A model generated the notes under the pieces. It had not been told where the DNA came from. It saw only the letters and a list, made by a program, of their open reading frames with translations, and ran no database searches. A DNA stretch of 64,000 bases from Megaustenia siamemsis (taxonomy: Eukaryota; Mollusca; Gastropoda; Stylommatophora; Ariophantidae), in contig JAVIAB010000156.1 in assembly GCA_032433765.1 (NCBI GenBank), positions 88,183,150 to 88,247,149 on the forward strand. Direction: 5' to 3'. Of the stretch, positions 15,360 to 63,215 are shown in pieces (position 1 is the stretch's first letter; each line of letters opens with the position of its first letter). A program made the position numbers and the translations under genes.

Positions 15360-15494
15360 TGTTCTCAAAGATGACTCATTTGTGTCTAATGTCTGACATC
15401 AAAGATGACACATTTGTGTCTAATGTCTGACATCAAAGATGACATATTTATGTCTAATGTCTGACATCAAAGATGACACAGTTGTGTCTAATGT
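15360..15494. repeat. 34-bp minisatellite, about 4 copies, split by the Penelope-like element
   Basis: Unit tgacatcaaagatgacacat plus ttgtgtctaatgtc. A remaining piece (agttgtgtctaatgtctgac) appears on the other side of the Penelope-like element at 18293. Confidence 0.88.
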
Positions 15495-21714: not shown

Positions 21715-21841
21715 GTGAGTTGAGTGATCGGCTGCGATACTTTGAGACCTTACACCATCTTGATGTCAAAGTTCGAAAAAAAAGAAATGCTGAGGGTCAG
21801 GATGTTGGTATAAAGGATATCAGCTTTTCTGCATTTGGAAA
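21715..21841 (+). CDS. ADAM17: ADAM17-like exon 2: N-terminal prodomain
   Basis: Acceptor tctgcag ends at 21714 and donor gtaagt starts at 21842. Encodes residues 15-57, beginning GELSDRLRYFETL and ending with FSAFGK, whose last Lys codon is split AA|G. This corresponds to the start of the ADAM prodomain (Pep_M12B_propep), where human ADAM17 has a similar basic stretch followed by a TFSAL-type motif. It is flanked on both sides by minisatellites, and its base composition and codon use differ clearly from them. Confidence 0.88.
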
Positions 21842-23514: not shown

Positions 23515-23648
23515 GGATTTTAGTTTGGTGTTAACGCCAGGGTCCCCAGTGCTCAGTGCTGGCTTCCAAGCTTCGCTAGTCGACAGTGCTGGCAAGTCTG
23601 TACCTCTGTATATTAATGAGAATGACTTCTTCACTGGTCACTTCTCAG
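23515..23648 (+). CDS. ADAM17: ADAM17-like exon 3: prodomain
   Basis: Acceptor catcaag ends at 23514; donor gtaagt begins at 23649. Encodes residues 58-101, including DFSLVLTPGS and the DFFTGH motif near residues 94-99, a hallmark of ADAM17-type prodomains. The acceptor has a weak polypyrimidine tract, but its phase (2 bases in, 1 base out) joins both neighbours exactly. Confidence 0.9.
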
Positions 23649-26700: not shown

Positions 26701-27088
26701 GAGGAATCAGGATTATTAGTTCAAATTCGGACAGAAGTGAAAGGAATAGTTGACAAAGAGGAACAAAATAGTCTACAGCGAAAAACAATAACTCTCAGTT
26801 TCCTGGATGAAGAATACCCACAAGACCTATGGATCCGTGTGTACACAGATGGATCAGCACAGAATGCAGTAAAGAATGGGGGAGCAGGTGCATATATAGA
26901 GTACCCAAATAACACTAGGGATATGAATAAAATAGCAACAGGGAAATATTGTCACAATTTTGATGCAGAAATACAAGCAATAAAGTTGGCAATAGAAAAA
27001 CTGCTGAACAGTAATCTTAGCCCACAGCCTGTAGTGTTTTTGACAGATGCAAGATCAGTACTCCAGGCACTACAATCCAGAAAATTAC
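23705..27088 (+). mobile_element. LINE C (I-like LINE with RNase H), endonuclease damaged
   Basis: An 849-codon frame opens at 24592. It holds a linker (RWNYKKADWKMY), the RT from SPGSDGVSNEMI through YRPISLTSCLCKTME, AAWIDLKKAFDKVW and RQGVPQGGVLSPTLFLIYIN to AMYADDLVMWC (catalytic YADD near 25945), a long thumb region, and an RNase H domain with VYTDGSAQNA (26838), AEIQAIKLA (26965) and LTDARSVLQAL (27040). Upstream, the endonuclease keeps CCLQETHLN, YRSDR and SDHRP, but the middle with the GDFN motif is missing and the frame shifts near 24480, so it is probably inactive. The RNase H places it in the I superfamily (I/Nimb-like). The end is replaced by the 33-bp array. Confidence 0.85.
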
Positions 27089-30000: not shown

Positions 30001-33000
30001 TTGTTGAGTGCTATCTCGTCATCAAAGTTTGACTTGTTGAGTGCCATCTCGTCATCAAAGTTTGACTTGTTGAGTGCCATCTCATCATCAAAGTTTGACT
30101 TGTTGAGTGCCATCTCATCATCAAAGTTTGGCTTGTTGAGTGCCATCTCGGCATCAAAGTTTCACTTGTTGAGTGCCATCTTGGCATCAAAGTTTGACTT
30201 GTTAAGTGCCATCTTGGCATCAAAGTTTGTCTTGTTGAGTGCCATCTCGTCATCAAAGTTTGACTTGTTCAGTGCCATCTCGGCATCAAAGTTTGACTTG
30301 TTGAGTGCCATCTCGGCATCAAAGTTTGACTTGTTGAGTGCCATCTCGTCATAAAAGTTTGACTTATTGAGTGGCATCTCGTCATCAAAGTTTCACTTGT
30401 TGAGTGCCATCTCGTCATCAAAGTTTGACTTATTGAGTGCCATCTCGTCATCAAAGTTTGACTTGTTGAGTGCCATCTCGGCATAAAAGTTTGGCTTGTT
30501 GATTGCCATCTTGGCATCAAAGTTTGGCTTGTTGAGTGCTATCTCGTCATCAAAGTTTGACTTGTTGAGTGCCATCTCGTCATCAAAGTTTGACTTGTTG
30601 AGTGCCATCTCATCATCAAAGTTTGACTTGTTGAGTGCCATCTCATCATCAAAGTTTGGCTTGTTGAGTGCCATCTCGGCATCAAAGTTTCACTTGTTGA
30701 GTGCCATCTTGGCATCAAAGTTTGTCTTGTTGAGTGCCATCTCGTCATCAAAGTTTGACTTGTTCAGTGCCATCTTGGCATCAAAGTTTGACTTGTTCAG
30801 TGCCATCTCGGCATCAAAGTTTGACTTGTTGAGTGCCATCTCGTCATAAAAGTTTGACTTATTGAGTGGCATCTCGTCATCAAAGTTTCACTTGTTGAGT
30901 GCCATCTCGTCATCAAAGTTTGACTTATTGAGTGCCATCTCGTCATCAAAGTTTGACTTGTTGAGTGCCATCTCGGCATCAAAGTTTGACTTGTTGAGTG
31001 CAAACTTGGCATCAAAGTTTGACTTGTTGAGTGCCATCTCGGCATCAAAGTTTGACTTGTTGAGTGCCATTTCGGCATCAAAGTTTGGCTTGTTGAGTGC
31101 CATCTTGGCATCAAAGTTTGACTTGTTGAGTGCAAATTCGGCTTCAAAGTTTGGCTTGTTGAGTGCCATCTTGGCATCAAAGTTTGACTTGTTGAGTGCC
31201 ATCTTGGCATCAAAGTTTGACTTGTTGAGTGCCATCTTGGCATCAAAGTTTGGCTTGTTGATTGCCATCTCGTCATCAAAGTTTGACTTGTTCAGTGCCA
31301 TCTCGTCATCAAAGTATGACTTGTTCAGTGCCATCTCGGCATCAAAGTTTGGCTTGTTGATTGCCATCTCGTCATCAAAGTTTGGCTTGTTCAGTGCCAT
31401 CTCGGCATAAAAGTTTGGCTTGTTGATTGCCATCTCGTCATCAAAGTTTGTCTTTTTGAGTGCCATCTCGTCATCAAAGTTTGAATTGTTGAGTGCCATC
31501 TCGTCATCAAAGTTTGACTTGTTGAGTGCCATCTCGTCATCAAAGTTTGACTTGTTGAGTGCCATCTCAGCATAAAAGTTTGGCTTGTTGAGTGCCATCT
31601 CGTCTTCAAAGTTTGGCTTGTTGAGTGCTATCTTATCATCAAAGTTTGACTTGTTGAGTGCCATCTCGTCATCAAAGTTTGGCTTGTTGAGTGCCATCTC
31701 GTCATCAAAGTTTGACTTGTTGAGTGCCATCTCATCATCAAAGTTTGGCTTGTTGAGTGCCATCTCGGCATCAAAGTTTCACTTGTTCAGTGCCATCTTG
31801 TCATCAAAGTTTGACTTGTTGAGTGCCATCTCGGCATCAAAGTTTGACTTGTTGAGTGCCATCTTGGCATCAAAGTTTGGCTTGTTGAGTGCCATCTCGT
31901 CATCAAAGTTTGACTTGTTGAGTGCCATCTCATCATCAAAGTTTGACTTGTTGAGTGCCATCTCGTCATCAAAGTTTGACTTGTTGAGTGCCATCTCGGC
32001 ATCAAAGTTTGACTTGTTGAGTGCCATCTCGTCATCAAAGTTTGGTTTGTTGAGTGCCATCTTGGCATCAAAGTTTGACTTGTTGAGTGCCATCTCAGCA
32101 TCAAAGTTTGGCTTGTTGAGTGCCATCTTGGCATCAAAGTTTGGCTTGTTGAGTGCCATCTCGGCATCAAAGTTTGACTTGTTGAGTGCCATCTTGGCAT
32201 CAAAGTTTGGCTTGTTGATTGCCATCTTGTCATCAAAGTTTGGCTTGTTGATTGCCATCTTGTCATCAAAGTTTGGCTTGTTGAGTGCCATCTCGTCATC
32301 AAAGTTTGGCTTGTTGAGTGCCATCTCGTCATCAAAGTTTGACTTGTTGAGTGCCATCTCGTCATCAAAGTTTGGCTTGTTGAGTGCCATCTTGTCATCA
32401 AAGTTTATGTTGTTGAGTGCCATCTCGGCATCAAAGTTTGACTTGTTGAGTGCCATCTCGTCATCAAAGTTTGGCTTGTTGAGTGCTATCTCGTCATCAA
32501 AGTTTGACTTGTTGAGTGCCATCTCGTCATCAAAGTTTGACTTGTTGAGTGCCATCTCATCATCAAAGTTTGACTTGTTGAGTGCCATCTCATCATCAAA
32601 GTTTGGCTTGTTGAGTGCCATCTCGGCATCAAAGTTTCACTTGTTGAGTGCCATCTTGGCATCAAAGTTTGACTTGTTAAGTGCCATCTTGGCATCAAAG
32701 TTTGTCTTGTTGAGTGCCATCTCGTCATCAAAGTTTGACTTGTTCAGTGCCATCTTGGCATCAAAGTTTGACTTGTTCAGTGCCATCTCGGCATCAAAGT
32801 TTGACTTGTTGAGTGCCATCTCGTCATAAAAGTTTGACTTATTGAGTGGCATCTCATCATCAAAGTTTCACTTGTTGAGTGCCATCTCGTCATCAAAGTT
32901 TGACTTATTGAGTGCCATCTCGTCATCAAAGTTTGACTTGTTGAGTGCCATCTCGGCATCAAAGTTTGACTTGTTGAGTGCAAACTTGGCATCAAAGTTT

Positions 33001-34092
33001 GACTTGTTGAGTGCCATCTCGGCATCAAAGTTTGACTTGTTGAGTGCCATTTCGGCATCAAAGTTTGGCTTGTTGAGTGCCATCTTGGCATCAAAGTTTG
33101 ACTTTTTGAGTGCAAATTCGGCTTCAAAGTTTGGCTTGTTGAGTGCCATCTTGGCATCAAAGTTTGACTTGTTGAGTGCCATCTTGGCATCAAAGTTTGA
33201 CTTGTTGAGTGCCATCTTGGCATCAAAGTTTGGCTTGTTGAGTGCCATCTCATCATCAAAGTTTGGCTTGTTGAGTGCCATCTCATCATCAAAGTTTGGC
33301 TTGTTGACTGCCATCTTGGCATCAAAGTTTGACTTGTTGAGTGCCATCTCTGCATCAAAGTTTGTCTTGTTGAGTGCCATCTTGGCATCAAAGTTTGACT
33401 TGTTGAGTGCCATCTCGGCATCAAAGTTTGTCTTGTTGAGTGCCATCTCGTCATCAAAGTTTGACTTGTTGAGTGCCATCTTGGCATCAAAGTTTGACTT
33501 GTTGAGTGTCATCTCGGCATCAAAGTTTGTCTTGTTGAGTGCCATCTTGGCATCAAAGTTTGACTTGTTGAGTGCCATCTCGGCATCAAAGTTTGTCTTG
33601 TTGAGTGCCATCTCATCATCAAAGTTTGGCTTGTTGAGTGCCATCTCGGTATCAAAGTTTGACTTGTTGAGTGCCATCTTGGCATCAAAGTTTGACTTGT
33701 TGAGTGCCATCTCGGCATCAAAGTTTGTCTTGTTGAGTGCCATCTCGTCATCAAAGTTTGACTTGTTGATTGCCATCTCGTCATCAAAGTTTGACTTGTT
33801 GAGTGCCATCTCGGCATCAAAGTTTGTCTTGTTGAGTGCCATCTCGTCATCAAAGTTTGACTTGTTGAGTGCCATCTCGGCATCAAAGTTTGACTTGTTG
33901 AGTGCCATCTTGGCATCAAAGTTTGGCTTATTGAGTGCCATCTCGTCATCAAAGTTTGTCTTGTTGAGTGCCATCTCGTCATCAAAATTTGTCTTGTTGA
34001 GTGCCATCTCGTCATCAAAGTTTGACTTGTTGAGTGCCATCTCGGCATCAAAGTTTGACTTGTTGAGTGCCATCTTGGCATCAAAGTTTGGA
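27089..34092. repeat. 33-bp satellite array, about 212 units, with higher-order structure
   Basis: Unit ctcgtcatcaaagtttgact plus tgttgagtgccat, with gt/gg, ctcg/cttg and cat/gcat variants. Because 33 is a multiple of 3 and the unit has few stops, both strands show long frames (- strand MALNKSNFDDE repeats up to 461 codons; + strand SSKFDLLSAI). Rare variants recur in blocks: gagtggcatctc at about 27380, 28404, 30373, 30866 and 32846, and gtgcaaacttgg at about 27517, 28537, 30995 and 32977. Spacings near 1.02 and 1.98 kb (about 31 and 60 units) show duplication of large blocks. Starts abruptly inside the LINE C RNase H frame. Confidence 0.96.
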
Positions 34093-35436: not shown

Positions 35437-35525
35437 AGGACAAAAGCATCAAAGCTGATGCCCACACTGAGGATGGCCTGTGGACTGTCAGCATCTATGA
35501 CAGGGATGACATTTACCTACTGGAG
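35437..35525 (+). CDS. ADAM17: ADAM17-like exon 4: prodomain
   Basis: Acceptor tgttcag ends at 35436; donor gtcagt begins at 35526. The first two bases complete Glu102, followed by DKSIKADAHTEDG and a run ending IYLLE (residue 131). The pattern of a loop followed by a beta-strand fits the prodomain after TGH. The end is in phase 0. Confidence 0.88.
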
Positions 35526-35897: not shown

Positions 35898-35934
35898 ATC
35901 AACAAGACTGCATGGTTCACTCAGCCACTGCAAT
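35898..35934 (+). CDS. ADAM17: ADAM17-like exon 5: 37-nt microexon
   Basis: Acceptor ttttttatcag ends at 35897; donor gtaagt begins at 35935. Encodes INKTAWFTQPLQ (residues 132-143) plus one base of Tyr144. NKT is a possible N-glycosylation site. It sits directly after an intronic 27-bp repeat array. It was found because exon 4 ends in phase 0 and exon 6 needs one incoming base; only this frame satisfies both. Confidence 0.78.
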
Positions 35935-36815: not shown

Positions 36816-37051
36816 CACACTACACACACATAGCAACGATCACACTGACATTGCACACACCACACTTACGCTTCACATCTAACACACACGCATCAACAAT
36901 TGTACCTAAACATCATGACTGCTCAACACATACATCTAACACCCACACAGCACACACATACACAAAATAAAATCCACATTTGTCAGCAACATAAGCTACA
37001 TGTAATTGTTTGATTACTCACAGCCCTCATGGCGCCACCTGTCCCCTTCAG

Positions 37052-37130
37052 ATAACCACAGCATGATTGTATATCGCCAGTCAGACATCAAGTGGGATCA
37101 CATGTTCTCAGATGTGTCCCTACACAAGAG
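37052..37130 (+). CDS. ADAM17: ADAM17-like exon 6: prodomain
   Basis: Acceptor gtccccttcag ends at 37051; donor gtttgt at 37131 is weaker than the others. Completes Tyr144 and encodes NHSMIVYRQSDIKW and onward to LHK, with two bases of Arg170. The MIVYRQSDIK block resembles the ADAM17 segment just before the cysteine switch. Confidence 0.87.
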
Positions 37131-38274: not shown

Positions 38275-40241
38275 TGAAGTAGTGGATAATTAGGGGTGAT
38301 AGAAGGGGAGGCTATTAGGGGTACAAAAGGTCAAAAGGTGAAGGTGAGAGATGCCGTAAACATGTAGTAACTCATTGTCCACGTGAAATGACATGATTAG
38401 GTGAGCGTCTCGAAAAACACGAGGTTTGAAAACGAGACAAAGATTCAGTTAGAGAATTTTAGTTGGTTGAAATAGTCATTCGAGAGATGTGCGAGAAGCT
38501 GTGCGGACGGACTTGTCACGTTTGACAACCCGGTACCGAGGGCATTATGTTAGTAGGAAAAAGGAACAGAATGTTAGAAATTAGATTTCAATGTAGGAAT
38601 GACAGTAAGTAAAAGAAACGTGTGATAGAGATAGAAGAATATTTCATGGACTTAGGAAACTGTGCTAGAAATAGTTGTGATTTAATTCAATAAGGTGTGT
38701 GTAGAGTAGGGGAGTTAATTAGAGTTTAGTAGCACAACGAGGACAATAGTAGGAACTCGGTAGAGTTCATATTGTGCTCAGAGAACTAAGAACGAGTCTG
38801 TTCTTACTAGTATTGGCTGAATGTAAGCCGTATAAGGAATTTCTGAGGCTGAATGTAAGCCGTATCAGGAATTTATGAGGAACTGGGTATGTTCCATATT
38901 CTATGTAGAGACGGTAGAGGGCAGGATTGTTCTTACTGGTCTTAGGCTGGATGTAAGCCGCATAGAGAGATTATTTTGATGAATTTCGTAGATTCAATGT
39001 TGTGTGACAATATTGAATATAGAGACTTAGAGAACAGGAATTGTTCTGACCATTAGTAGGCTGTGTGTCAGCCATAAAGAGACAGTTGATGAATCCAATA
39101 GATTCGACATTGTGTGTCAATGTTGAATATAGAGACGTTAGAGAGCAGACATTGTTCTAACCATTAGCAGGCTGTGGGTCAGCCATAAAGAGACAGTTGA
39201 TGAATCCAATAGATTCGACATTGTGTGTCAATGTTGAATATAGAGACGTTAGAGAGCAGACATTGTTCTAACCATTAGCAGGCTGTGTGTCAGCCATAAA
39301 GAGACAGTTGATGAATCCAATAAATTCGACATTGTGTGTCAATGTGAAATATAGCGATCTTAGAGAACAGGAATTGTTCTGACCATAGGCGGGCTGAATG
39401 TAAGCCACAGAGAATATTGTTTTGATGAACGCAGTAGGTTCAATGAGTTGTGCAATTAGTGTGGAGTATAGGGTGGCGCTGGGCCACTAATAAATTAACT
39501 AATTAGGCATAAGGCGTGTTTCCCAGAGGAGACACACAAGCCAGTGAGTAGATGTGAATTCTGTACTTGAATAAGTGTAGGACGTATGAGTGAATGACAA
39601 TAATGTATTTGTCATACCATGCCATCGTGGGAAGTGCAGTAAAATAAAGCAACGTATGTTTTGTTTACGAGTGTCACTTCAGTCATTCTTGTTGTCACGT
39701 CCATCGTTATAGAGTTGCTGTATTCTGTCCCCGTGATGAACGGATGGGGGTGTCGCAGGCCATAAATAACACAACGCGAAGTACAAACGTAAATGATTAC
39801 GGGCCAACGTGATGGGAAAACAAAGGAATCCTGTCCATCCAGTCCAGTAGAACACCAGGCCGGGCTCAGATCTTTACGAGCCTTGCCACTATTGCAGAGC
39901 AAACATCAGGTTGGGCTCAGATCTATACGAGCCTTACCTTTGTCAGACGCAATCGGTCTGAACACAGTCACAGAGCAGGGGAGCTTTGTTCGAGCTGAAG
40001 GGCGCAATCGGTCCTAACGTGTGGGCTCATATGTCTCAGAGTTCACAGAGTTCTTTCCCGATCAAGTAAACGTGAGGCGATCTTTCGGCGGCTGAGCAAG
40101 TGCCGTCGAGAGTTATCAGTGATCGAGGTTCAGTATCTCTATCAAGGTTCAGTATCTGATCAACGCCTCGCTCGCCTCAAAGAAGCATCCTGATGTCAAG
40201 GTTATCTTCGCATAATGGCAAAAAAAGTCCTCCCCTTTACA
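38275..40241 (+). repeat. 5' LTR
   Basis: Contains a polyadenylation signal AATAAA at 39643-39648 and internal repeats of roughly 110 bp (about 39000-39340, gacattgtgtgtcaatgttg and gtcagccataaagagacagt). Small frames inside it occur identically in the 3' LTR and match nothing I know. Confidence 0.88.
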
Positions 40242-41500: not shown

Positions 41501-43427
41501 TGAAGTAGTGGATAATTAGGGGTGATAGAAGGGGAGGCTATTAGGGGTACAAAAGGTCAAAAGGTGAAGGTGAGAGATAGCCGTAAACATGTAGTAACTC
41601 ATTGTCCACGTGAAATGACATGATTAGGTGAGCGTCTCGAAAAACACGAGGTTTGAAAACGAGACAAAGATTCAGTTAGAGAATTTTAGTTGGTTGAAAT
41701 AGTCATTCGAGAGATGTGCGAGAAGCTGTGCGGATGGACTTGTCACGTTTGACAACCCGGTACCGAGGGCATTATGTTAGTAGGAAAAAGGAACAGAATG
41801 TTAGAAATTAGATTTCAATGTAGGAATGACAGTAAGTAAAAGAAACGTGTGATAGAGATAGAAGAATATTTCATGGACTTAGGAAACTGTGCTAGAAATA
41901 GTTGTGATTTAATTCAATAAGGTGTGTGTAGAGTAGGGGAGTTAATTAGAGTTTAGTAGCACAACGAGGACAATAGTAGGAACTCGGTAGAGTTCATATT
42001 GTGCTCAGAGAACTAAGAACGAGTCTGTTCTTACTAGTATTGGCTGAATGTAAGCCGTATAAGGAATTTCTGAGGCTGAATGTAAGCCGTATCAGGAATT
42101 TATGAGGAACTGGGTATGTTCCATATTCTATGTAGAGACGGTAGAGAGCAGGATTGTTCTTACTGGTCTTAGGCTGGATGTAAGCCGCATAGAGAGATTA
42201 TTTTGATGAATTTCGTAGATTCAATGTTGTGTGACAATATTGAATATAGAGACTTAGAGAACAGGAATTGTTCTGATCATTAGCAGGCTGTGTGTCAGCC
42301 ATAAAGAGACAGTTGATGAATCCAATAGATTCGACATTGTGTGTCAATGTTGAATATAGAGACGTTAGAGAGCAGACATTGTTCTAACCATTAGCAGGCT
42401 GTGGGTCAGCCATAAAGAGACAGTTGATGAATCCAATAGATTCGACATTGTGTGTCAATGTTGAATATAGAGACGTTAGAGAGCAGACATTGTTCTAACC
42501 ATTAGCAGGCTGTGTGTCAGCCATAAAGAGACAGTTGATGAATCCAATAAATTCGACATTGTGTGTCAATGTGAAATATAGCGATCTTAGAGAACAGGAA
42601 TTGTTCTGACCATAGGCGGGCTGAATGTAAGCCACAGAGAATATTGTTTTGATGAACGCAGTAGGTTCAATGAGTTGTGCAATTAGTGTGGAGTATAGGG
42701 TGGCGCTGGGCCACTAATAAATTAACTAATTAGGCATAAGGCGTGTTTCCCAGAGGAGACACACAAGCCAGTGAGTAGGTGTGAATTCTGTACTTGAATA
42801 AGTGTAGGACGTATGAGTGAATGACAATAATGTATTTGTCATACCATGCCATCGTGGGAAGTGCAGTAAAATAAAGCAACGTATGTTTTGTTTACGAGTG
42901 TCACTTCAGTCATTCCTGTTGTCACGTCCATCGTTATAGAGTTGCTGTATTCTGTCCCCGTGATGAACGGATGGGGGTGTCGCAGGCCATAAATAACACA
43001 ACGCGAAGTACAAACGTAAATGATTACGGGCCAACGTGATGGGAAAACAAAGGAATCCTGTCCATCCAGTCCAGTAGAACACCAGGCCGGGCTCAGATCT
43101 TTACGAGCCTTGCCACTATTGCAGAGCAAACATCAGGTTGGGCTCAGATCTATACGAGCCTTACCTTTGTCAGACGCAATCGGTCTGAACACAGTCACAG
43201 AGCAGGGGAGCTTTGTTCGAGCTGAAGGGCGCAATCGGTCCTAACGTGTGGGCTCATATGTCTCAGAGTTCACAGAGTTCTTTCCCGATCAAGTAAACGT
43301 GAGGCGATCTTTCGGCGGCTGAGCAAGTGCCGTCGAGAGTTATCAGTGATCGAGGTTCAGTATCTCTATCAAGGTTCAGTATCTGATCAACGCCTCGCTC
43401 GCCTCAAAGAAAGTCCTCCCCTTTACA
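41501..43427 (+). repeat. 3' LTR
   Basis: Near-identical to 38275-40241; AATAAA at 42870-42875. It lacks about 41 nt (gcatcctgatgtcaaggtta and onward in the 5' copy) near its right end. Confidence 0.88.
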
Positions 43428-44586: not shown

Positions 44587-44684
44587 GAAGCCGCTGTGCG
44601 GAGCCATACATCCTGAAGTAGAGCCTGACTATAATCCAGAGTGGGAACAGAGACAAGAACAGTTGGCAGCCGAGAAGGAAGATG
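44587..44684 (+). CDS. ADAM17: ADAM17-like exon 7: cysteine switch
   Basis: Acceptor ctgaag ends at 44586 with a weak pyrimidine tract; donor gtaagt begins at 44685. Encodes residues 170-202 from R|KPLCGAIHPE to the acidic run AAEKED. Cys174 in KPLCG corresponds to the prodomain cysteine switch that ligates the active-site zinc in the zymogen. The following acidic, Gln/Glu-rich linker leads to the furin site in exon 8. One base is left over and completed by exon 8. Confidence 0.9.
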
Positions 44685-49015: not shown

Positions 49016-49069
49016 CAACATTATCTTCAAGTAAAATAAGATGACTAATATTCCTACACAAAATGATAG

Positions 49070-52000
49070 TCACATGGGTATCACCAGACCACATCACAGA
49101 GAATGGTAGACAAAGTGACTAGGGTATCACTAGACCATGTCACAGAGAATGGTAGACAAGTTACTTGGGTATCACTAGACCATGTCACAGAGAATGGTAG
49201 ACAAGTTACTTGGGTATCACTAGACCATGTCACAGAGAATGGTAGACAAGTTACTTGGGTATCACTAGACCATGTCACAGAGAATGGTAGACAAGTTACT
49301 TGGGTATCACTAGACCATGTCACAGAGAATGGTAGACAAGTCACATGCATATCACTAGACCATGTCACAAAGAATGGTAGACAAGACATATGGGTATCAC
49401 TAGACCATGTCACAGAGAATGGTAGACAAGTCACATGGGTATCACTAGACCATGTAACAGAGAATTGTAGACAAGTCACATGGGTATCACTAGACCATGT
49501 CACAGAGAATGGTAGACAAGTCACATGCATATCACTAGACCATGTCACAAAGAATGGTAGACAAGACATATGGGTATCACTAGACCATGTCACAGAGAAT
49601 GGTAGACAAGTCACATGGGTATCACTAGACCATGTCACAGAGAATGGTAGACAAGTTACATGGGTATCACTAGACCATGTCACAGATAATGGTAGATAAG
49701 TCATATGGGTATCACTAGACCATGTCACAGAGAATGGTAGACAAGTTACATGGGTATCACTAGACCATGTCACAGATAATGGTAGATAAGTCACATGGGT
49801 ATCACTAGACCACATCACAGAGAATGGTAGACAAGTTACATGGGTATCACTGGATCACACTACTGAGAATGGTAGACAAGTCATTTAGGTATCACTAGAC
49901 CATGTCACAGAGAATGTAGACAAGTCACATGGATATCACTAGACCACATCACAGAGAATGGTAGACAGTCACATGGGTATCACTAGACCACATCACAAAG
50001 AATGGTAGACAAAGTCACATGGGTATCACTAGACCATGTCACAGAATGGTAGACAAGTCACATGGGTATCACTAGACCATGTCACAGAGAATGGTAGACA
50101 AGTCACTTGGGTATCACTAGACCATGTCACTGAGAATGATAGACAAAGTCACATGGGTATCACTGTAATAGGGTCTCTTCCCAGATGGTCAGTTGTAACG
50201 ACATTGTAACGAGGCGCACAACACAAAGCACCACTTGTACATTTGATTGTAACAGGGTATTTCTCCCCTTCATGCGTTGTCTGGAACTGGACTCTATTCG
50301 ACCGCTGCAAAGCTCGTTAAGGACTTGAGCCCCTGTGTACCTGATAGGGAAGATGCACACAGCAAGCTCCCTATGATCTGCGCCTTTCCTCCACTTGAAG
50401 TGGAGAAGGTGTCGACAGAAAGCTCGTTGAGATTTGAACCCTCACTCGACCTCACCAACCACCTTGGATGCCAGCCACTTGCACTGACATGGACGACTTG
50501 AACTGCCTTAGTTGACTATCTGCCCGTGGATGGGACTTCTGCCGGTTGATCGTTCTGATGTACTCCGCGCTGTTATGTCCGTGGTTCAGGACGAGCCAGT
50601 ATCCGTTCTTCACTAGGACTAGACAACAACACAGCTAGCATTGAACAAAGCAGGCACCAACACCATTGAACTCACACAACGTTTATAGCACACAAGTAAT
50701 TGCTCCCCTGCATTTCACAATAGCCACATGCCTGATGGCCTCTCATTCCTTCCTAGCTTTCTCTCTGACACTACAATAGCAGCATGCCAGCACTAGTCTT
50801 CTCAAGCCTAACAGTCGTGAGAACACTCTCCATAATACAATTCTCTGTAATTGTTACTACCAGCTTCCTAATAAAGTCTCTTCATGGCTATTACTAAGCC
50901 TATACTAGTGAACACACTCCCACAATAATACGGTCTCTGCCACTGTTGAAGCTACCAGCTTCCTAATAAAGTCACATTACACTATCTACCCTAACACTTC
51001 TCCAGGAATTTCCACCTCACTAGCTCGACTGTCACTGCTTAACTGACCTATCCTTGAAAACTGCCTGAACTCCACTTTTCCCCCTGTTCATGGTAATCGG
51101 CTGTACAACACGCACAGTCGCCCGCACTGAACCATCACTCTACATCGAATGAATCTATCCGTTTTAACCTATCCTTTGTCTAACTTAAACTCTCCCCTGC
51201 CTCGTTTTTGATCGCCCTACACGCTTTCCCCCTGATTGATGATATGTTCATTTATCCGCTTTCCCCGTGGACCTGAAGCCTCTTACTAATACTCTCGACC
51301 TATTTACTCTCTTAACTTCCACGTGGACTATGAGTTCCTCTCAATCTTTATCTCAACCCTTATCTCCCCTTGACCTCTACTAAATTATCTGTCTCTTTCC
51401 TATCCTTATTACCTCCCTGTTTCATCACTAGACCATGTCATGGAGAATGGTAGACAAAGTGACTTGGGTATCACTAGATCACATCACAGAGAATGGTAGA
51501 CAAGTCACATTGGTGTCACTAGACCACGTCACAGAAAATGGTAGACAGTCACATGGGTATCACTAGATCACATCACAAAAAATGGTAGACAAAGTCACAT
51601 GGGTATCACTAGACCATGTCACAGAGAATGGTAGACAAAGTGACTTGGGTATCACTAGACCACATCACAAAGAATGGTAGACAAAGTCACATGGGTATCA
51701 CTAGAGCATGTCACAGAGAATGGTAGACAAAGTGACTTGGGTATCACTAGACCACATCACAAAGAATGGTAGACAAAGTCACATGGGTATCACTAGACCA
51801 TGTCACAGAGAATGGTAGACAAAGTGACTTGGGTATCACTAGACCACATCACAGAGAATGGTAGACAAGTCACTTGGGTATCACTAGACCACATCACAAA
51901 GAATGGTAGACAAAGTCACATTGGTATGACTAGACCACATCACAGAGAATGGTGGACAGGTCACTTGGGTATCACTAGACCACATCACAGAGAATGGTGG

Positions 52001-52385
52001 ACAAGTCACTTGGGTATCACTAGACCACATCACAGAGAATGGTGGACAAGTCACTTGGGTATCACTAGACCACATCACAGAGAATGGTGGATAAGTCACT
52101 TGGGTATCACTAGACCACATCACAGAGAATGGTAGACATGTCACTTGGGTATCATTAGACCACATCACAGAGAATGGACAAGTCACTTGGGTATCACTAG
52201 ACCACATCACAGGGAATGGACAAGTCACTTGGGTATCACTAGACCACATCACAAAGAATTGTGAACTAGTCACTTGGGTATCACTAGACCACATCACAGA
52301 GAATGGTGGACAAGTCACTTGGGTATCACTAGACCACATCACAAAGAATGGTAGAAAAAGAGAGTTTGGTATCACCAGACCATGT
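49070..52385. repeat. 45-bp minisatellite, split by a solo LTR
   Basis: Unit gggtatcactagaccatgtc plus acagagaatggtagacaagt and cacat; about 24 copies at 49070-50163 and 21 at 51425-52385. 45 is a multiple of 3, giving open frames on both strands (VSLDHVTENGRQVTW) that are not genes. Confidence 0.95.
50164..51424 (-). mobile_element. Probable solo LTR (1261 bp), 4-bp target duplication TCAC
   Basis: Begins TGTAATAGGG and ends CCCTGTTTCA (TG...CA), with TCAC at 50160-50163 and 51425-51428. The host minisatellite reads ...tatcactag... without it. The inverted ends resemble those of the full LTR element (TGAA...TTTACA read on the - strand), so I place it on the - strand. No coding capacity is seen. 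Confidence 0.7.
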
Positions 52386-52612
52386 CACACAGATTGCCCA
52401 CATTCGTGTTAGCAGATGGTTAAGCAGAGTTAAGGTGGGCACAGTCAGAAATGAGAAACTTAGTGGTCATGTAAGAAGACTTATCAACCAACATAGAACT
52501 GGAGTCGTCAGTCGCTGGACACTGCTGGAATTGCTGAGGAGGGGATCTGAGCACCTATGGACATGTTCAGAGTGCAATGATGATGACCCACAAATAACTC
52601 AATAGCAACTCA
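52386..52612 (+). other. Unrecognised unique segment with an open frame
   Basis: Between two arrays lies about 225 bp of complex sequence, open in one + frame to a stop at 52603, including VSRWLSRVKVG, LSGHVRRLINQHRTG and LWTCSECNDDDP. CSEC could be half of a zinc motif. It may be the end of a transposon protein; I cannot assign it. Confidence 0.35.
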
Positions 52613-52613
52613 A

Positions 52614-54375
52614 TCTAGAACTTTCTGTTTGTATCTGACACAGCTAGATCTAGAACTTTCTGTTTGTATCTGACACAGCTAGATCTAGAACTTTCTGTTT
52701 GTATCTGACATATAGACAAAATATAGCCGTGTTCTAACTGTTCTTGGTATAAGACACGACACCACACATTCAAGAATCAACAAACTTTGCGTGTTACAAA
52801 TCAGTCCTCATTTATTATGTTACATACAGATATATGTAGATGCTATCAGGCTGTCCTTCCTAGCGTCTCTGTTCTGTAGATACTTGTTCGATCTAATGAG
52901 TCTTGGCCGCTGAAGTATTTCGACTACCGTCGGTGTTGTACATCAGCTATTCGTATAGTGGATATTCTAGCTTTCTCTCTATATCTAGCTCTCTTTCGTC
53001 TGTGTCTTCTGTTTCTAAAGTTCTCCAATGGCTATCTTGGTGCCTATCTCTAGTTCTCCGTCTCTTCTCTAGTTCTTGTCCTCTAGTTCTGGTGCCTGAC
53101 TTCTAATTCTGATCTGTAATTCTAATTCTGCTCTCCTGTAGTTCTGTTTCTCTAGTTCTCGTCTCTTCTCTAAGTTGAAGTTTTTCTGTGACTATCTCAA
53201 TTCCTATCGGTCGCTAGTGCGTGGCTATCTCTGTGTGTTCCTAGTCAAGATGTAAAAGTGGAAGCTCCCTCTCAAGTCTGCCCTCTAACTTTTATACGGT
53301 TTTGACCGACCGTGAACCTTTTTTCCCGCCAACTATTCTTTATCCAGATAAAAGTGACATCTGGCTCTGCTCTACTCCTTTCTGCATTCTAAGTGACCTT
53401 CCCTCACCATCTGCCACTTGTGTGACTAGCCTTTAGTTCATGAGTTCCACATTCCTTACTGACAGCTAAAGTAAGTTTACGACCAGTGGTCAGTCACGGT
53501 GGTCGTGACTAGCATTTAGTTTATAAGTTCTACATTCCTCACCAACAGCTAAGGTCATTCCCCAGCCATCTGGCACCTTTAGTTTATGTCAGTCAGTGCA
53601 GTTAGTCATCCCTCTGCTAAATTTGTCTAGTCCTGTTTAGTCCTCACTTAATTATGATCTAAATATGTATGTGCTATCATTCACGGTTACAGACACAGGT
53701 AGATCTAGAACTTTCTGTTTGTATCTGACACAGCTGGACCTAGAACTTTCTGTTTGTATCTGACACAGCTAGATCTAGATCTTTCTGTTTGTATCTGACA
53801 CAGCTAGATCTAGAACTTTCTGTTTGTATCTGACACAGCTAGATCTAGATCTTTCTGTTTGTATCTGACACAGCTAGACCTAGAACTTTCTGTTTGTATC
53901 TGACACAGCTAGATCTAGATCTTTCTGTTTGTATCTGACACAGCTGGACCTAGAACTTTCTGTTTGTATCTGACACAGCTAGATCTAGAACTTTCTGTTT
54001 GTATCTGACACAGCTAGATCTAGAACTTTCTGTTTGTATCTGACACAGCTAGATCTAGAACTTTCTGTTTGTATCTGACACAGCTGGACCTAGAACTTTC
54101 TGTTTGTATCTGACACAGCTAGATCTAGAACTTTCTGTTTGTATCTGACACAGCTAGATCTAGATCTTTCTGTTTGTATCTGACACAGCTAGACCTAGAA
54201 CTTTCTGTTTGTATCTGACACAGCTAGATCTAGATCTTTCTGTTTGTATCTGACACAGCTGGACCTAGAACTTTCTGTTTGTATCTGACACAGCTAGATC
54301 TAGATCTTTCTGTTTGTATCTGACACAGCTAGATCTAGAACTTTCTGTTTGTATCTGACACAGCTAGATCTAGAA
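52614..54375 (+). repeat. 35-bp array made of copies of the exon 8 splice acceptor
   Basis: Unit: 23 bases ctttctgtttgtatctgaca plus cag (pyrimidine-rich, ending in AG), followed by 12 bases ctagatctagaa. The last unit is the real 3' splice site and the first 12 bases of exon 8. About 3 units precede and about 19 follow a solo LTR at 52711-53691. Variants are ctagatctagat and ctggacctagaa. Every unit keeps a plausible acceptor. Confidence 0.92.
52711..53691 (-). mobile_element. Probable solo LTR (981 bp), 4-bp target duplication GACA
   Basis: Interrupts the acceptor array: GACA at 52707-52710 and 53692-53695 flank it, and the uninterrupted repeat reads ctgacacag. On the - strand it starts TGTAACCGTG and ends TCTATA, so one end departs from TG...CA. 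AATAAA on the - strand (tttatt at 52811-52816) suits an LTR polyadenylation signal. Confidence 0.6.
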
Positions 54376-54479
54376 GAGATGCGCAGCAACAAAACACCTG
54401 CCACATCCTGGCTGTAGCAGACTACTCATTCTTCATCGGACCAGGAGGAGGCTTCCAACACAAAACAGCCAGTGTCATT
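54364..54479 (+). CDS. ADAM17: ADAM17-like exon 8: furin site and start of protease domain
   Basis: Acceptor ctgacacag ends at 54363; donor gtaaga begins at 54480. With the incoming g it reads A-RSRR-DAQQQ (residues 203-212), then NTCHILAVADYSFF and a Gly-rich stretch to TASVI (241). RSRR fits the furin consensus R-X-R/K-R at the expected prodomain-protease boundary. The first 12 bases are identical to the 35-bp repeat unit filling the end of intron 7, and the last 8 bases belong to the 52-bp unit that fills intron 8. The nearer AG at 54373 would also keep phase but would lose the furin site, so it is less likely. Confidence 0.9.
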
Positions 54480-54744
54480 GTAAGATTGTATATGTGACCA
54501 GTTTAAATATAAATGACCAACTTGTGTCATTGTAAGATTGTATATGTGACCAGTTTAAATATAAATGACCAACTTGTGTCATTGTAAGATTGTATATGAG
54601 ACCAGTTTAAATATAAATGACCAACTTGTGTCATTGTAAGATTGTATATCAGACCAGTTTAAATATAAATGACCAACTTGTGTCATTGTAAGATTGTATA
54701 TGTGACCTGTATAAATATAAATGACCAACTTGTGTCATTGTAAG

Positions 54745-55060
54745 ATTGTATATCTCTCTCTCTCTCTCTCTGCGATCAGGACTCAATCAGAGTAGGATTC
54801 CAGACTCCCACATGAAGTTAGCTGTCAGGCTAAGTAATACGTTGCACTGTGTTCTGCGCCAGTGGCCCAGTGCATCCGATTTCTGCCAGCATTTTATTCG
54901 GGTTTGCTTTCCCTAGTCTTTGATTGTCCCCAATCTTCCTGCAAGGCAGCAGGTCGTCTGTTCTGTAAGGGGATTCTGCCCTTAGATGGTCGGCCCTCCC
55001 AGGTTTACGAGCACCATCTGCCCGAGTCACTAGAGGTGACTAACACAGACATGCACACAC
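54745..55060 (-). mobile_element. Second (AG)n-tailed nonautonomous element
   Basis: Closely matches 3516-3992: (CT)n, then tgcgatcaggactcaatcag through to cgagtcactagaggtgacta, with about 60 bp missing near 54836. Inserted in the donor array. Confidence 0.65.
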
Positions 55061-55545
55061 AAAGATGTGAGATGTGACTAACACAGACATGCACACAGCG
55101 ATACGAGGCATGACTAACATTGACACACATCAAGATATATGACACATGACTAACATAAACATGCACATAAAGATATGAGATATGACTAACATAGATATGC
55201 ACACACAAAGACATGAGATGGGACTAACATAGACATGCGCACACAAAGATATGACACATGCCTAACATAGACATGCACACAAAGATATGACATATGACTA
55301 ACACTGGTGCACACTAAGATATGAGATATGACTAAACACAGACACACATAAAGATATGAGACATGGTTAACACGGACGCACCAAGATATGAGATATGACT
55401 AACATGACACACACCAAGATATGAGCCATGGCCAGCACACACAAGCCAAGATATGAGCCATGGCTAGGACAGAAACACATCAAGATATGAGCCATGGCTT
55501 CACGGAAAAACACCAAGAAATGAACCATGTCTAGCACAGAAACAC
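55030..55545. repeat. Degenerate repeat around gactaacacagacatgcacacaaagatatga
   Basis: Irregular units of about 30-36 bp that begin in the end of the (AG)n-tailed element (the same words occur once or twice at 3940-3990), so the array probably grew from that element. The sequence 55546-55705 after it is unique with nothing recognised. Confidence 0.8.
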
Positions 55546-55833
55546 ATTAAAGTGTCCATATGCTTGGGTTTGTTGTAGTCGGCAGACTCTTCTGAACGTG
55601 GGAATCACAGGTTTCGTTAAACAGTTGTCCGGAGATTTGAGAGTGCTGTCTGGCCCATAGAACGTTCTCTTGCATGTACAGTTCCCGATTGACTGTTCAC
55701 AGGTGTCAAATGACCAACTTGTGTCATTGTAAGATTGTATATGTGACCTGTTTAAATATAAATGACCATCTTGTATTATTGTAAGATTGTATATGAGACC
55801 TGTTTAAATATAAATGACCATCTTGTATCATTG

Positions 55834-56144
55834 CTACGTTGGACATGTGATGAGAAGAGATAATAATCGAATAGCAAAGCAAGCCCTCATATGGGAAACA
55901 ACAGGTAAAAGAAAAAGAGGAAGACCCAGGGAGACACTGAGAAGAACATTGATGAGAGAGGCAAGAGCAGCAGGAATCGGCTCCCTCAATGAGATAGAAC
56001 TGCTTGCACAGAACAGAGACAGATGGCGAGATTTGATAAAATATCTTTAAAAGAAAACTGCTAGAACAAAAATTCATATAGGAGAAGGTGTATCTTGGTC
56101 TACGCCCTATGGGCCGGTTACGGCTCGAAAGGTCAGAGATGAGA
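55834..56144 (+). mobile_element. LINE B 3' fragment, 10-bp target duplication
   Basis: Encodes YVGHVMRRDNNRIAKQAL, KRGRPRETLRRTLM, GIGSLNEIELLAQ and DRWRDLIKYL, stop at 56048, then the LINE B 3' UTR. TGTATCATTG at 55824-55833 and 56145-56154 flanks it. The 85-bp segment amplified at 2250 is single-copy here. Confidence 0.85.
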
Positions 56145-56822
56145 TGTATCATTGTAAGATTGTATATGTGACCTGTTTAAACATAAATGACCATCTTGTG
56201 TCATTGTAAGATTCTATATGAGACCTGTTTAAACATAAATGACCAACTTGTGTCATTGTAAGATTCTATATGAGACCTGTTTAAACATAAATGACCAACT
56301 TGTGTCATTGTAAGATTCTTTATGAGACCTGTTTAAACATAAATGACCATCTTGTATCATTGTAAGATTGTATATGTGACCTGTTTAAACATAAATGACC
56401 ATCTTGTATCATTGTAAGATTCTATATGAGACCTGTTTAAACATAAATGACCAACTTGTGTCATTGTAAGATTCTATATGAGACCTGTTTAAACATAAAT
56501 GACCATCTTGTATCATTGTAAGATTGTATATGTGACCTGTTTAAATATAAATGACCATCTTGTATCATTGTAAGATTGTATATGTGACCTGTTTAAATAT
56601 AAATGACCATCTTGTATCATTGTAAGATTGTATATGTGACCTGTTTAAATATAAATGACCATCTTGTATCATTGTAAGATTGTATATGAGACCTGTTTAA
56701 ATATAAATGACCATCTTGTGTTATTGTAAGATTCTATATGAGACCTGTTTAAACATAAATGACCAACTTGTATCATTGTAAGATTCTATATGAGACCTGT
56801 TTAAACATAAATGACCATCTTG

Positions 56823-59040
56823 TGTAATAATGTTAGAATTGCGAGCGCTTGTGCGCGAGAGAGAGAGATGATGTAATATCCCTTGTAATATCACTTGCGA
56901 GCGATATTTATCTGTAATACTCATCTGTCATAAACCATGTCTCATAAACCATGACCTGTCTCTCCCTCACTTGTAATAATAAACTTGAAGCTCAATTTCT
57001 TATAACCTTGACAATCAACTTGACTGATCAATGAAATGCCGACTCATGAACGATCGACTGACCGCTCGTCAACCTTGAGCCTGTGATCATTCCTCTTCAC
57101 CACGAGCCCGATTACCAGAGGTGCTTTCGCACGATGAGCGAGGGCTCGTGATGCTGCTTATGGCCGGATTGCTGAATGACGAGTTGCTCGCCACTCTTAT
57201 GATCTGCCCCTTGCTCTAACTGCCATGTCAGTCTTTTGGACCGCCATGATTTGATGCCTCGTACTTCACGTTATGTTGTTGCGACTCTCCTTGGACCGTT
57301 ATGATCTATAGTTTAGTACTTCACGTTGTAACTTCTCAATTCCCCGCGACTTCTCAGTTCGTTCACTCGCTAGACCGTTGGAACACTGAAAGATGTTTTA
57401 ATGACTCAACACAAGTCCTTACTAAACACAAAACATCTTTATTTGACAAGGCACATGTCCGGATCATACAACACATTTCACAAATTAACAGTACATATAT
57501 TGACAGTGATAATTCCCTCCCTTGGTTAACAATAGTGCCACCCTCAGGTGCATTCCTCATGGACTGACCATACAGCCCAAAATCTGTGGAACTCTCTTAT
57601 CGAGTTCCCAACTCTGTGTAAACTACTTGACTAACAAGTTCAATTGTGTATCGTAGAAGCTAGTCACAAGCTCCCAAGTCTCTGAGGAACCTTACTTGAA
57701 GTTTCCCAATGATGTGTACGATCTACACGATCGGTAAAAGTCTCTAAGGAATCTTACTTGAAGTTTCCCAATGATGTGTACGATCTACACGATCGATGAA
57801 AGTCTCTAAGGAATCTTACTTGAAGTTTCCCAATGATGTGTACGATCTACACGATCGATGAAAGTCTCTAAGGAATCTTACTTGAAGTTTCCCAATGATG
57901 TGTACGATCTACACGATCGATGAAAGTCTCTAAGGAATCTTACTTGAAGTTTCCCAATGATGTGTACGATCTACACGATCGATGAAAGTCTCTAAGGAAT
58001 CTTACTTGAAGTTTCCCAATGATGTGTACGATCTACACGATCGATGAAAGTCTCTAAGGAATCTTACTTGAAGTTTCCAGTTATGTTTGCGATCGACACG
58101 ATCGATCAAACCAATGGTTCACGGTAGCAGCTGCTCATAAGCCTACCACGTCTCTGTGGAATCTTGCTCTCAGTTTCCACTTATGGGTGCGATCTAGACG
58201 ATCGATGAAAGTCTCTCTTCATGGTAGAAGCTTAGTCATAAGCTTCCTAAACTTCCCGCTACGACTTCCTCGAAGTCGGCGAGTGTTAGATAATCCACAA
58301 ATTTCCAACAATGTCCCATTGTGTCGATTGCACTGATTCACAATCAGTTTCTATGCCGAGAAGGTAACCCTAACCTTAACAGCTGCAATCACACCTATTC
58401 TATATTGTTCACATCTAACACAACATTTAGTAACTAACAATCACAATTCCTGGAAATACAACAACTAAACTAATTGGCTGCCGCCCTATATTTGTCTTAA
58501 CTTTCATCTATTAACTACTCTTTTCTAGTCCACGGTAAGCGACTGGATTTCTCCAGACGTCCGCACTGGACCCCGGCTCGAATGCCCTCTGTTTATCTTA
58601 ACTTTCATCTATTAACTACTCCTTCCTAGTCCGCGGTAAGCGACTGGATTTCTCCAGACGTCCGCACTGGACCCCGGCTCGAATGCCCTCTGTTTATCTT
58701 AACTTTCATCTATTAACTACTCCTTCCTAGTCCGCGGTAAGCGACTGGATTTCTCCAGACGTCCGCACTAGACCCGGCTCAAAATGCCCTCTGTCTCTAA
58801 AATCTACGACTATTCTCATCTCCCTACTTCCCCTTAAAACATCTCACCCATTCACGCTTATTTCGCCTTTTTCCAAAACAGTTCACTCACTCACACCTGA
58901 CCACTTCTGCTTGTCTCCCCTAGATGTTTATTATTTCTCTACTAATATCGTCTGTTTCAATCAACTCTCATCAATGCTCTGTTTCTCTTGTTGCCCCGCT
59001 ACACACCCGTTTCACACACCCTCATCCATTCCCTGTTTCA
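56823..59040 (-). mobile_element. Probable solo LTR (2218 bp), 4-bp target duplication CTTG
   Basis: Begins TGTAATAATG and ends CCCTGTTTCA, with CTTG at 56819-56822 and 59041-59044 flanking. Shares both end words with the element at 50164. Inside are about six 62-bp repeats (cgatgaaagtctctaaggaa, about 57700-58080) and three of about 115 bp (about 58490-58790). AATAAA occurs on the - strand (tttatt, 57438-57443) at a position comparable to the full element's LTR. No coding capacity. Confidence 0.7.
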
Positions 59041-59464
59041 CTTGTGTCATTGTAAGATTGCATATGTGACCAGTTTAAATATAAATGACCATCTTGTGTC
59101 ATTGTAAGATTCTATATGAGACCTGTTTAAACATAAATGACCATCTTGTGTCATTGTAAGATTGTATATGTGACTTGTTTAAACATAAATGACCATCTTG
59201 TGTCATTGTAAGATTGCATATGAGACCTGTTTAAATATTAATGACCATCTTGTATCACTGTAAGATTGTATATGAGACCTGTTTAAATATTAATGAGCTA
59301 TTCGTGTCATTGTAAAGCTACACCTGTGGTCTAATCTGTTAGTAAAAGATCAGCCTTATGATAAAAGTGCCAATAGACTGAATTCATACAATTTGAATGG
59401 ATTCAGACTTTCCCTCCTCTTCCCACTACTTAATTCTTTGATACCACATTTTACACGAGAGAGG

Positions 59465-60888: not shown

Positions 60889-60981
60889 ATCTTGACAATG
60901 CAGAGGGTCAATCACATCTTCAGAGACACGTTGTGGGGCGCTGAGCCATCTCTAACAAACATGGGACTGCAGATCAAGGAG
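60889..60981 (+). CDS. ADAM17: ADAM17-like exon 9: reprolysin domain
   Basis: Acceptor atatctttcag ends at 60888; donor gtcagt begins at 60982. Phase 0 at both ends, 31 codons (residues 242-272), ILTMQRVNHIFRDTLW to LQIKE. The helix with R-V-N-H-I-F and the following GLQIKE strand match the early metalloprotease fold of ADAM17. Confidence 0.9.
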
Positions 60982-63107: not shown

Positions 63108-63215
63108 CTTCGAATTCACCATGAGATCACGGCTACCAGTGGCTACCATAAGAATGGGAGACACTACAACATGTACGACGACAGCATTGCCTGGCATGAT
63201 CATGACTTTCTGAAG
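63108..63215 (+). CDS. ADAM17: ADAM17-like exon 10: reprolysin domain
   Basis: Acceptor tctacag ends at 63107; donor gtaggt begins at 63216. Phase 0 at both ends, 36 codons (residues 273-308): LRIHHEITATSGYHKNG, then HYNMYDDS and ending HDFLK. HYNM is shared with ADAM17 in this region. The next exons, including the HExxH zinc site, are outside the window. Confidence 0.9.

Follow-up and report, generated by a model that had tools for sequence, protein, structure and literature searches.

Putative mirage minisatellites on both sides of an ADAM17-like exon in the gastropod Megaustenia siamemsis

The closest described systems are the 'mirage' minisatellites of amphioxus. It has been reported, in the accessible text of PMC3087553, that the globin genes BflGb6 and BflGb9 carry tandem duplications of their 3′ and 5′ boundaries, with Adh3 and other loci described earlier. 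RT-PCR suggested there that regular splicing is undisturbed, and it was remarked that the copies could act as cryptic sites and that the arrays are unstable in length. The arrays described below share with these the tandem units across an intron-exon boundary (3′ or 5′), the many AG or GT dinucleotides that are kept, and the genic boundary lying beside the copies. They differ in being found in a gastropod instead of a cephalochordate and in occupying both boundaries of one 116-bp exon. The numbers of copies are 21-22 and 26, compared with the 6 and 3 units given in that text for two BflGb6 haplotypes. The units are of 35 and 52 bp, whereas those of amphioxus are given as 150-160 bp (globin) and 10-72 bp (Adh3).

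Similar arrangements are known from other genes. According to the available part of PMC3902484, which also cites troponin C, 60- and 108-bp tandem repeats in the lancelet PGBD5 gene coincide with or overlap 5′ and 3′ splice sites. Those repeats are imperfect, one being a 3 × 108 bp triplication, whereas the copies here are many and near-identical. Internal tandem repeats at human exon-intron boundaries are likewise a product of minisatellite expansion, for which novel introns arising through cryptic splice sites were proposed (PMC2812944, as far as its text is accessible). In recent duplicates they average 30-bp units × 4, whereas no new intron is implied here. Intron gain by tandem duplication of AG/GT is the subject of the Rogers model, as cited in the accessible text of PMC3087553, and reportedly also concerns a potato RdRp gene (PMC4974935). 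The likeness lies in the tandem splice-signal copies within a gene, but the intron here is not new, since the paralogue described below has an intron at the same place as the one ahead of the exon under study. Among the literature matches listed, judged by titles and abstract starts and including few subscription papers, no report of junction-spanning minisatellite arrays outside chordates was recognised. The accessible portions of a cone-snail paper (PMC3862624) and an earthworm paper (PMC12783039) describe repeats in introns and no junction arrays. Read from the sequence, the arrays are putative mirage minisatellites, large and two-sided, in a mollusc, and they would extend mirages from amphioxus to that phylum.

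The gene is predicted to encode an ADAM17/TACE-like sheddase. The window is the whole stretch of 64,000 nucleotides that was analysed. Within it an ADAM17-like protein of Candidula placed eight exons in order on the + strand (Table 1), with one weak match elsewhere (E 0.04, minus strand), and a Physella protein located seven of those eight. Five homologous coding exons lie ahead of exon 8 in the window, the number 8 being that of the original prediction. The joined exons are open in frame from 23477 to 63215. They match ADAM17 in the PDB (9o54_A) with E 4.7e-13 over residues 5-190 of 194, which include the propeptide, the furin site and the start of the protease domain. Exon 8 alone gives a weak match to ADAM17, at E 0.47 or worse, and the 194-aa stretch matched no Pfam family at E 1. 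The closest protein is the ADAM17-like protein of Candidula unifasciata, with 60-62% identity (62% over 97% of the query; 8 matches). The match to Arion vulgaris is of 68% over 35% of the query, and those to Aplysia, Physella, Biomphalaria and Lymnaea are of 51-52%. Protein similarity by itself points to a gastropod, probably a stylommatophoran land snail or slug, and amphioxus was rejected as the source because the closest proteins that bear an organism name come from gastropods.

The predicted start of exon 8 at 54364 is supported by the frame from the previous exon and by RxxR homology. The preceding exon ends GAAGATG/gtaagt (a slash marks the junction here and below), one base into a codon. 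A start at CT gives GCT followed by AGA TCT AGA AGA, which reads A-RSRR. The RxxR motif is present in 8/8 aligned sequences that cover the furin place, the Arion sequence starting later. It is RSRR in the window, RAKR in Candidula, RVRR in Aplysia, RRER in Physella, RTKR in Biomphalaria, RHKR in Lymnaea, RSKR in Batillaria and RKKR in Mytilus. A further relative has RQKR here, and inspection of its translated flanks by eye showed nothing like a junction repeat. No array-encoded insert is present in the aligned orthologous proteins. By simple arithmetic, the one other in-frame AG, with an exon from 54379, would delete RSRR. An exon-like open stretch between AG and GT at 35899-35934 (INKTAWFTQPLQ) was dropped, being in no aligned orthologue.

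The zinc-binding HExxH site and the disintegrin region would lie beyond the window. Downstream of it on the same contig (C151), candidate exons ending LVTAH and containing GHNWGAEHD were found. Also downstream in the same gene (L035, C151:88332800-88338300), the exon at 2500-2574 shows an apparent loss of one base relative to its relatives, which breaks the frame. Damage to the gene at that point or an assembly error may account for this. The full function of this gene copy is therefore uncertain.

Table 1. Predicted exons and junction arrays of the ADAM17-like gene, with positions counted from the first letter of the window
Feature	Positions	Strand	Remarks
Upstream coding exon	21715..21841	+	GELSDRLRYFETLHHLDVKVRKKRN...FGK
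Upstream coding exon	23515..23648	+	DFSLVLTPGSPVLSAGF...TGHFS; 5′ end inferred
Upstream coding exon	35437..35525	+	by homology
Upstream coding exon	37024..37130	+	by homology
Exon 7 (number of the original prediction)	44587..44684	+	ends one base into codon, fits exon 8 start 54364
Acceptor array, left block	52621..52710	+	2 full 35-bp units and 1 cut; 2.8 copies from 52613 (TRF)
Insert splitting the acceptor array	52711..53691	.	about 981 bp, GACA on both sides
Acceptor array, main block	53692..54375	+	19.5 copies; last copy is the presumed true intron/exon junction
Intron part of terminal unit	54341..54363	+	presumed true 3′ splice site, AG 54362-54363
First 12 exon bases, common to the units	54364..54375	+	with neighbours A-R-S-R-R, furin site
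Exon 8 (number of the original prediction)	54364..54479	+	116 bp, RSRRDAQQQNTCHILAVADYSFFIGPGGGFQHKTASVI, start of ADAM17-like catalytic domain
Donor array, block 1	54472..54753	+	GTGTCATT + GTAAGATT..., 52-bp unit, 5.4 copies, 6 donor copies; first is the presumed true 5′ splice site
Donor array, block 2	55708..55833	+	2 donor copies
Donor array, block 3	56145..56823	+	13 donor copies
Donor array, block 4	59041..59315	+	5 donor copies
Next coding exon	60889..60981	+	in-frame join to exon 8 from donor 54479
Following coding exon	63108..63215	+	by homology

The acceptor unit of 35 bp is CTTTCTGTTTGTATCTGACACAG/CTAGATCTAGAA, made of 23 intron bases and the first 12 bases of the exon. The original prediction held that such a unit, taken from the gene's own acceptor, is present in about 22 copies. 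This is borne out by 21 full copies with 0 to 2 mismatches, found by unit match within 52621-54375. One hybrid copy (AG at 53698) brings the GACACAG sites to 22, of which the one at the junction (54363) comes last. It was further claimed that the copies lie in line before the true junction. The last copy is indeed the junction, but the line is interrupted by the 981-bp gap and the array consists of 2.8 + 19.5 copies. The main block has a TRF score of 1249 with 94% matches. The 23 bases of the intron part are invariant in 21/21 full copies, and CACAG is kept in all 21 of those found by unit match. Variation is confined to columns 26, 29 and 35, all within the 12 exon-like bases. By simple arithmetic, all 3 variable columns would fall within 12 of the 35 bases with a chance of about 3-4%; the core of the donor copies described below is also invariant. 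No claim is made for selection preserving the decoys, as the independent changes are few and exchange homogenises the units.

Four unit types, A to D, follow each other in the order AA[hybrid]CBABDBCAAACABDBCBAA. The block ABDBC is present twice, which fits the expectation from block exchange. The GACA on both sides of the insert is possibly a target-site duplication of 4 bp, the exact ends being uncertain. No second copy of the insert was found within the 64-kb window. The hybrid unit beside it (53692-53710) reads CAG/GTAGATC, in which a donor-like GT directly follows an acceptor, and is probably accidental.

The terminal copy was predicted to be the only one that keeps the frame, and every one of the 21 upstream acceptors does lead to a premature stop. 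As had been foreseen, the acceptor one unit up leads to LDLEEMRSNKTPATSWL-stop inside the exon, and that two units up meets a TGA within the repeat. The terminal unit is of type A. A terminal unit of type B would read EDARSR-stop, and one of type C would read GPRR, so that the furin motif would lack its first arginine; RxRR is preserved with types A and D. With B and C making up 10 of the 21 full units (6 B, 4 C), exchange of units into the exon edge would often be harmful.

Beyond what was originally predicted, the donor side of exon 8 is also an array. The exon ends with GTGTCATT/GTAAGATT, and its last 8 bases and the intron that follows form a unit of 52 bp. There are 26 donor copies in four blocks, spread over 4.8 kb (54472-59315), all 26 being on the + strand and none on the opposite one. 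The sequence GTAAGATT is kept in 26/26 of them. In 10/26 copies the sixth exon base, counted back from the junction, is A instead of G. The donor at 54479 fits an in-frame join to the next exon, and 25/25 of the later donors lead to a premature stop within the first added unit. A candidate hairpin, AAUGAC-loop-GUCAUU, was noted by eye ahead of the decoy donors; no function is argued for it, since the 10/26 copies with that A lose one pair. By homology and frame, the copies next to the exon are those at 54363 and 54479, and no others keep the frame open. Exon 8 is, on this prediction, a case of about 22 acceptors × 26 donors with one productive pair.

The best explanation, with a probability of roughly 75%, is that exon 8 is bracketed by two 'mirage' minisatellites which have grown from its own 3′ and 5′ junctions, that the exon-proximal copies are used by virtue of exon context, and that the arrays are nearly neutral. 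Tandem duplication would have begun at the 3′ and 5′ splice junctions of exon 8 itself. The arrays would then have grown by slippage or unequal exchange, array length being read from one assembly. The 12 exon bases of the acceptor unit encode most of the conserved furin site (RSRR). As the unit encodes this site and the gene model is in frame with both neighbours, the repeat most likely comes from the exon edge. A local origin is strongly suggested, since coding bases of the exon itself are part of the unit and each mirage has its own unit. The reverse order of events, in which a dispersed, introner-like satellite was inserted at exon edges and supplied their splice sites, would draw on a window that is full of minisatellites. 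It is judged very improbable, as the motif encoded by the exon part of the acceptor unit is common to gastropods and a mussel, and the other mirage junctions have different units, each resembling its own exon end. A search of the 2.59-Gb genome assembly with 54355-54484 also gave one match only, by a method that skips common repeats. Tandem arrays are difficult to assemble with the correct number of copies, and the exact copy number may be off here. That the arrays as such were made or resized by the assembler is extremely improbable, however, given the four unit types in an ordered pattern, the insert inside the array, a contig that spans 88.9 Mb and the presence of the pattern at other exons.

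Over at least 35 bases the true acceptor does not differ from the copy next to it, nor does the true donor differ from its neighbour over 60 (8 exon + 52 intron). True and decoy sites being identical, their accurate choice is unexplained by local sequence. Predicted RNA accessibility was ranked under three settings. The true donor took ranks 26, 8 and 23 among the 26 donors, and the true acceptor ranks 19, 20 and 10 among the 22 acceptors; these local pairing estimates are rough, some being slightly below zero. Folding gave a z of -0.88 for the acceptor end and of -2.17 for the donor array. The idea that RNA structure hides the decoys was rejected, as the local pairing estimates do not single out the true sites. 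Since neither local sequence nor predicted RNA pairing marks the true sites, exon context is left as the most likely guide. Under the reading of mirages grown from the exon's own junctions, the spliceosome would pick the exon-proximal copy on each side, and the real exon body with its enhancers would define the exon. Pairing of the sites across the 116-bp exon, together with enhancers in the exon body, would be the most likely guide. The remaining copies would leave as ordinary intron, and the arrays would be nearly neutral passengers of a genome rich in tandem repeats.

When splice sites are duplicated and exon context is equal, the intron-proximal copy is reportedly favoured, as in the experiments of Reed and Maniatis in 1986. 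Such a preference would pick the wrong copy at both ends of exon 8, and it speaks for a reading in which the decoys compete. A substantial share of the transcripts would then use upstream acceptors or downstream donors and be lost to nonsense-mediated decay, with less sheddase output. Heavy mis-splicing may be inferred from the arrays in this way, as it was in the original prediction, with a premature stop following from 21/21 upstream acceptors and 25/25 downstream donors and with a decoy core the same as that of the true sites. The remark that the copies could serve as cryptic sites, in the accessible text of PMC3087553, points in the same direction. Competition on such a scale is nevertheless considered unlikely. 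The amphioxus mirages are reported, in that same portion of text and in that of PMC3902484, without interference with regular splicing, and the intact state of the decoys (26/26 GTAAGATT; 21/21 intron parts) would be odd if they were costly, although exchange of units could also homogenise them.

A related proposal is that array length acts as a tunable dial. The copy number would be unstable from one individual to the next and would determine how much of the ADAM17-like mRNA is productive. It has in its favour that the arrays flank the furin-site exon on both sides, that all decoys are unproductive and that the type of the terminal unit affects the protein (a stop with B, loss of the first RSRR arginine with C). 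The mirage of amphioxus Adh3 has also been reported with length and somatic instability, in the accessible text of PMC3087553. The array is missing, however, at exon 8 of the paralogue, and the dial is regarded as improbable.

The genome was searched with the Physella protein, by which the rest of the gene was found on contig C151 and the paralogue at C143:19.50-19.60 Mb. In the paralogue tatcttcttcag stands directly ahead of the exon coding NARYRR. The junctions of its exon 8 are single-copy on both sides, with no array within 500 bases. The arrays at exon 8 would thus have arisen after the split or have been lost in the other copy. Between the two genes pN is 0.159 and pS 0.843 (synonymous sites being saturated) over 285 codons, from a sample of 8 exon pairs chosen from those available, which averages both copies and is blind to a recent decay of one. 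As pN is far below pS, coding constraint has prevailed. For the slug Deroceras laeve it is reported (PMC12506671, in its accessible part) that counting tandem repeats raises the repeat content by 28.39% of the genome, and that the ohnologues are consistent with a whole-genome duplication. The 50.8% of the window that consists of tandem arrays, and the presence of two ADAM17 genes, would fit the pattern of this slug.

As a further result beyond the original prediction, the pattern recurs at other exons of the gene and the paralogue. The edges of 29 exons (21 distinct ones from fetched stretches and 8 of the window; 58 edges) were tested with a 20-mer containing the AG or GT, which had to occur at least 3 times in the fetched stretch with no more than 3 mismatches. 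The 20-mers consisted of 12 intron and 8 exon bases for acceptors and of 8 exon and 12 intron bases for donors. Mirage arrays are present at 7/58 edges, comprising 6/29 donors and 1/29 acceptors, after eight had been flagged and one dropped; the tested edges belong to one gene pair found by homology, and the figure is not a genome-wide rate. A wider retest of 16 fetched exons that were unflagged or dropped gave zero new cases. The seven kept edges are the acceptor and donor of exon 8, the donors of L035, L037 and L044, and two donors of L047. The case that was dropped is the acceptor of L039, flagged with 7 copies, where the AGs that raised the flag precede the likely junction (2491), itself single-copy.

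The donor of L035 has a 27-bp unit; when up to 5 mismatches in 20 are allowed it has 104 copies, of which 102 have GT. With no more than 3 mismatches, its 20-mer of 8 exon and 12 intron bases is found 38 times, and CACCTGCAG/GTAGAG is part of the unit consensus. On these two grounds this donor is counted. Its shared exon bases were scored 0, as the seven nearest copies have another base immediately ahead of the junction. The donor of L037 has a 38-bp unit, in which 16/19 exon bases match the next copy. That of L044 has a 65-bp unit in three copies, 3 of them with GT. The first donor of L047 has a 55-bp unit in 8 copies, 8 with GT and with 40/46 exon bases matching. The second has a 35-bp unit, with 9 copies in L047 (7 with GT) and 23 in L048 (15 with GT), and with 28/30 exon bases matching. 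Some of the decoys in this L047/L048 array are without GT, unlike those of exon 8.

The identity of true and false sites throughout the splice-signal region, and this at each end of one small exon, constitutes a natural experiment on exon definition. Given the recurrence at 7/58 edges, gene annotation in snail genomes rich in repeats may be led astray by such arrays. A much broader proposition is that junction mirages are widespread and continuing in the snail lineage, at about one exon edge in eight, with tens of exact splice-site copies in many genes. Exon context would then override local site sequence, and array length would be a heritable and fast-changing control of the productive share of the ADAM17-like mRNA. 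Taken as a whole, this proposition is improbable.

Other ADAM17-like sequences were met with in the genome. A further copy, L029, has a 15-bp donor array with only CAG in common with the exon, and was left uncounted. At C1:87.9 Mb, L002 and L003 are ADAM17-like and unbroken over long stretches, one of them in a 767-aa open frame with 34% identity to Physella ADAM17. These two are possible retrocopies.

The window also contains mobile-element-like frames and several further repeats. An open frame of 902 aa with reverse transcriptase and RNase H lies at 24433-27138. Its closest matches with an organism name are from the land snail Bradybaena similaris (74%) and then Littorina saxatilis (57%), among the best 120 of 3132 matches, in which others reach up to 80%. 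Frames at 15492-16877 have weak similarity to reverse transcriptase and to GIY-YIG, both below the Pfam cut-off, a combination presumably as in Penelope-like elements. A direct repeat pair at 38275-40184 and 41501-43411, of about 1,911 bp and 99.6% identical, lies within one intron and may represent either a young LTR pair or a recent duplication. An intron of the ADAM17-like gene also holds a 7-kb array (27091-34090) of about 212 copies of a 33-bp unit. Like the 35-bp array, an array of 45-bp units (49068-50164, 51424-52393) is split by about 1.26 kb (50165-51423), with TCACT near both ends by eye.
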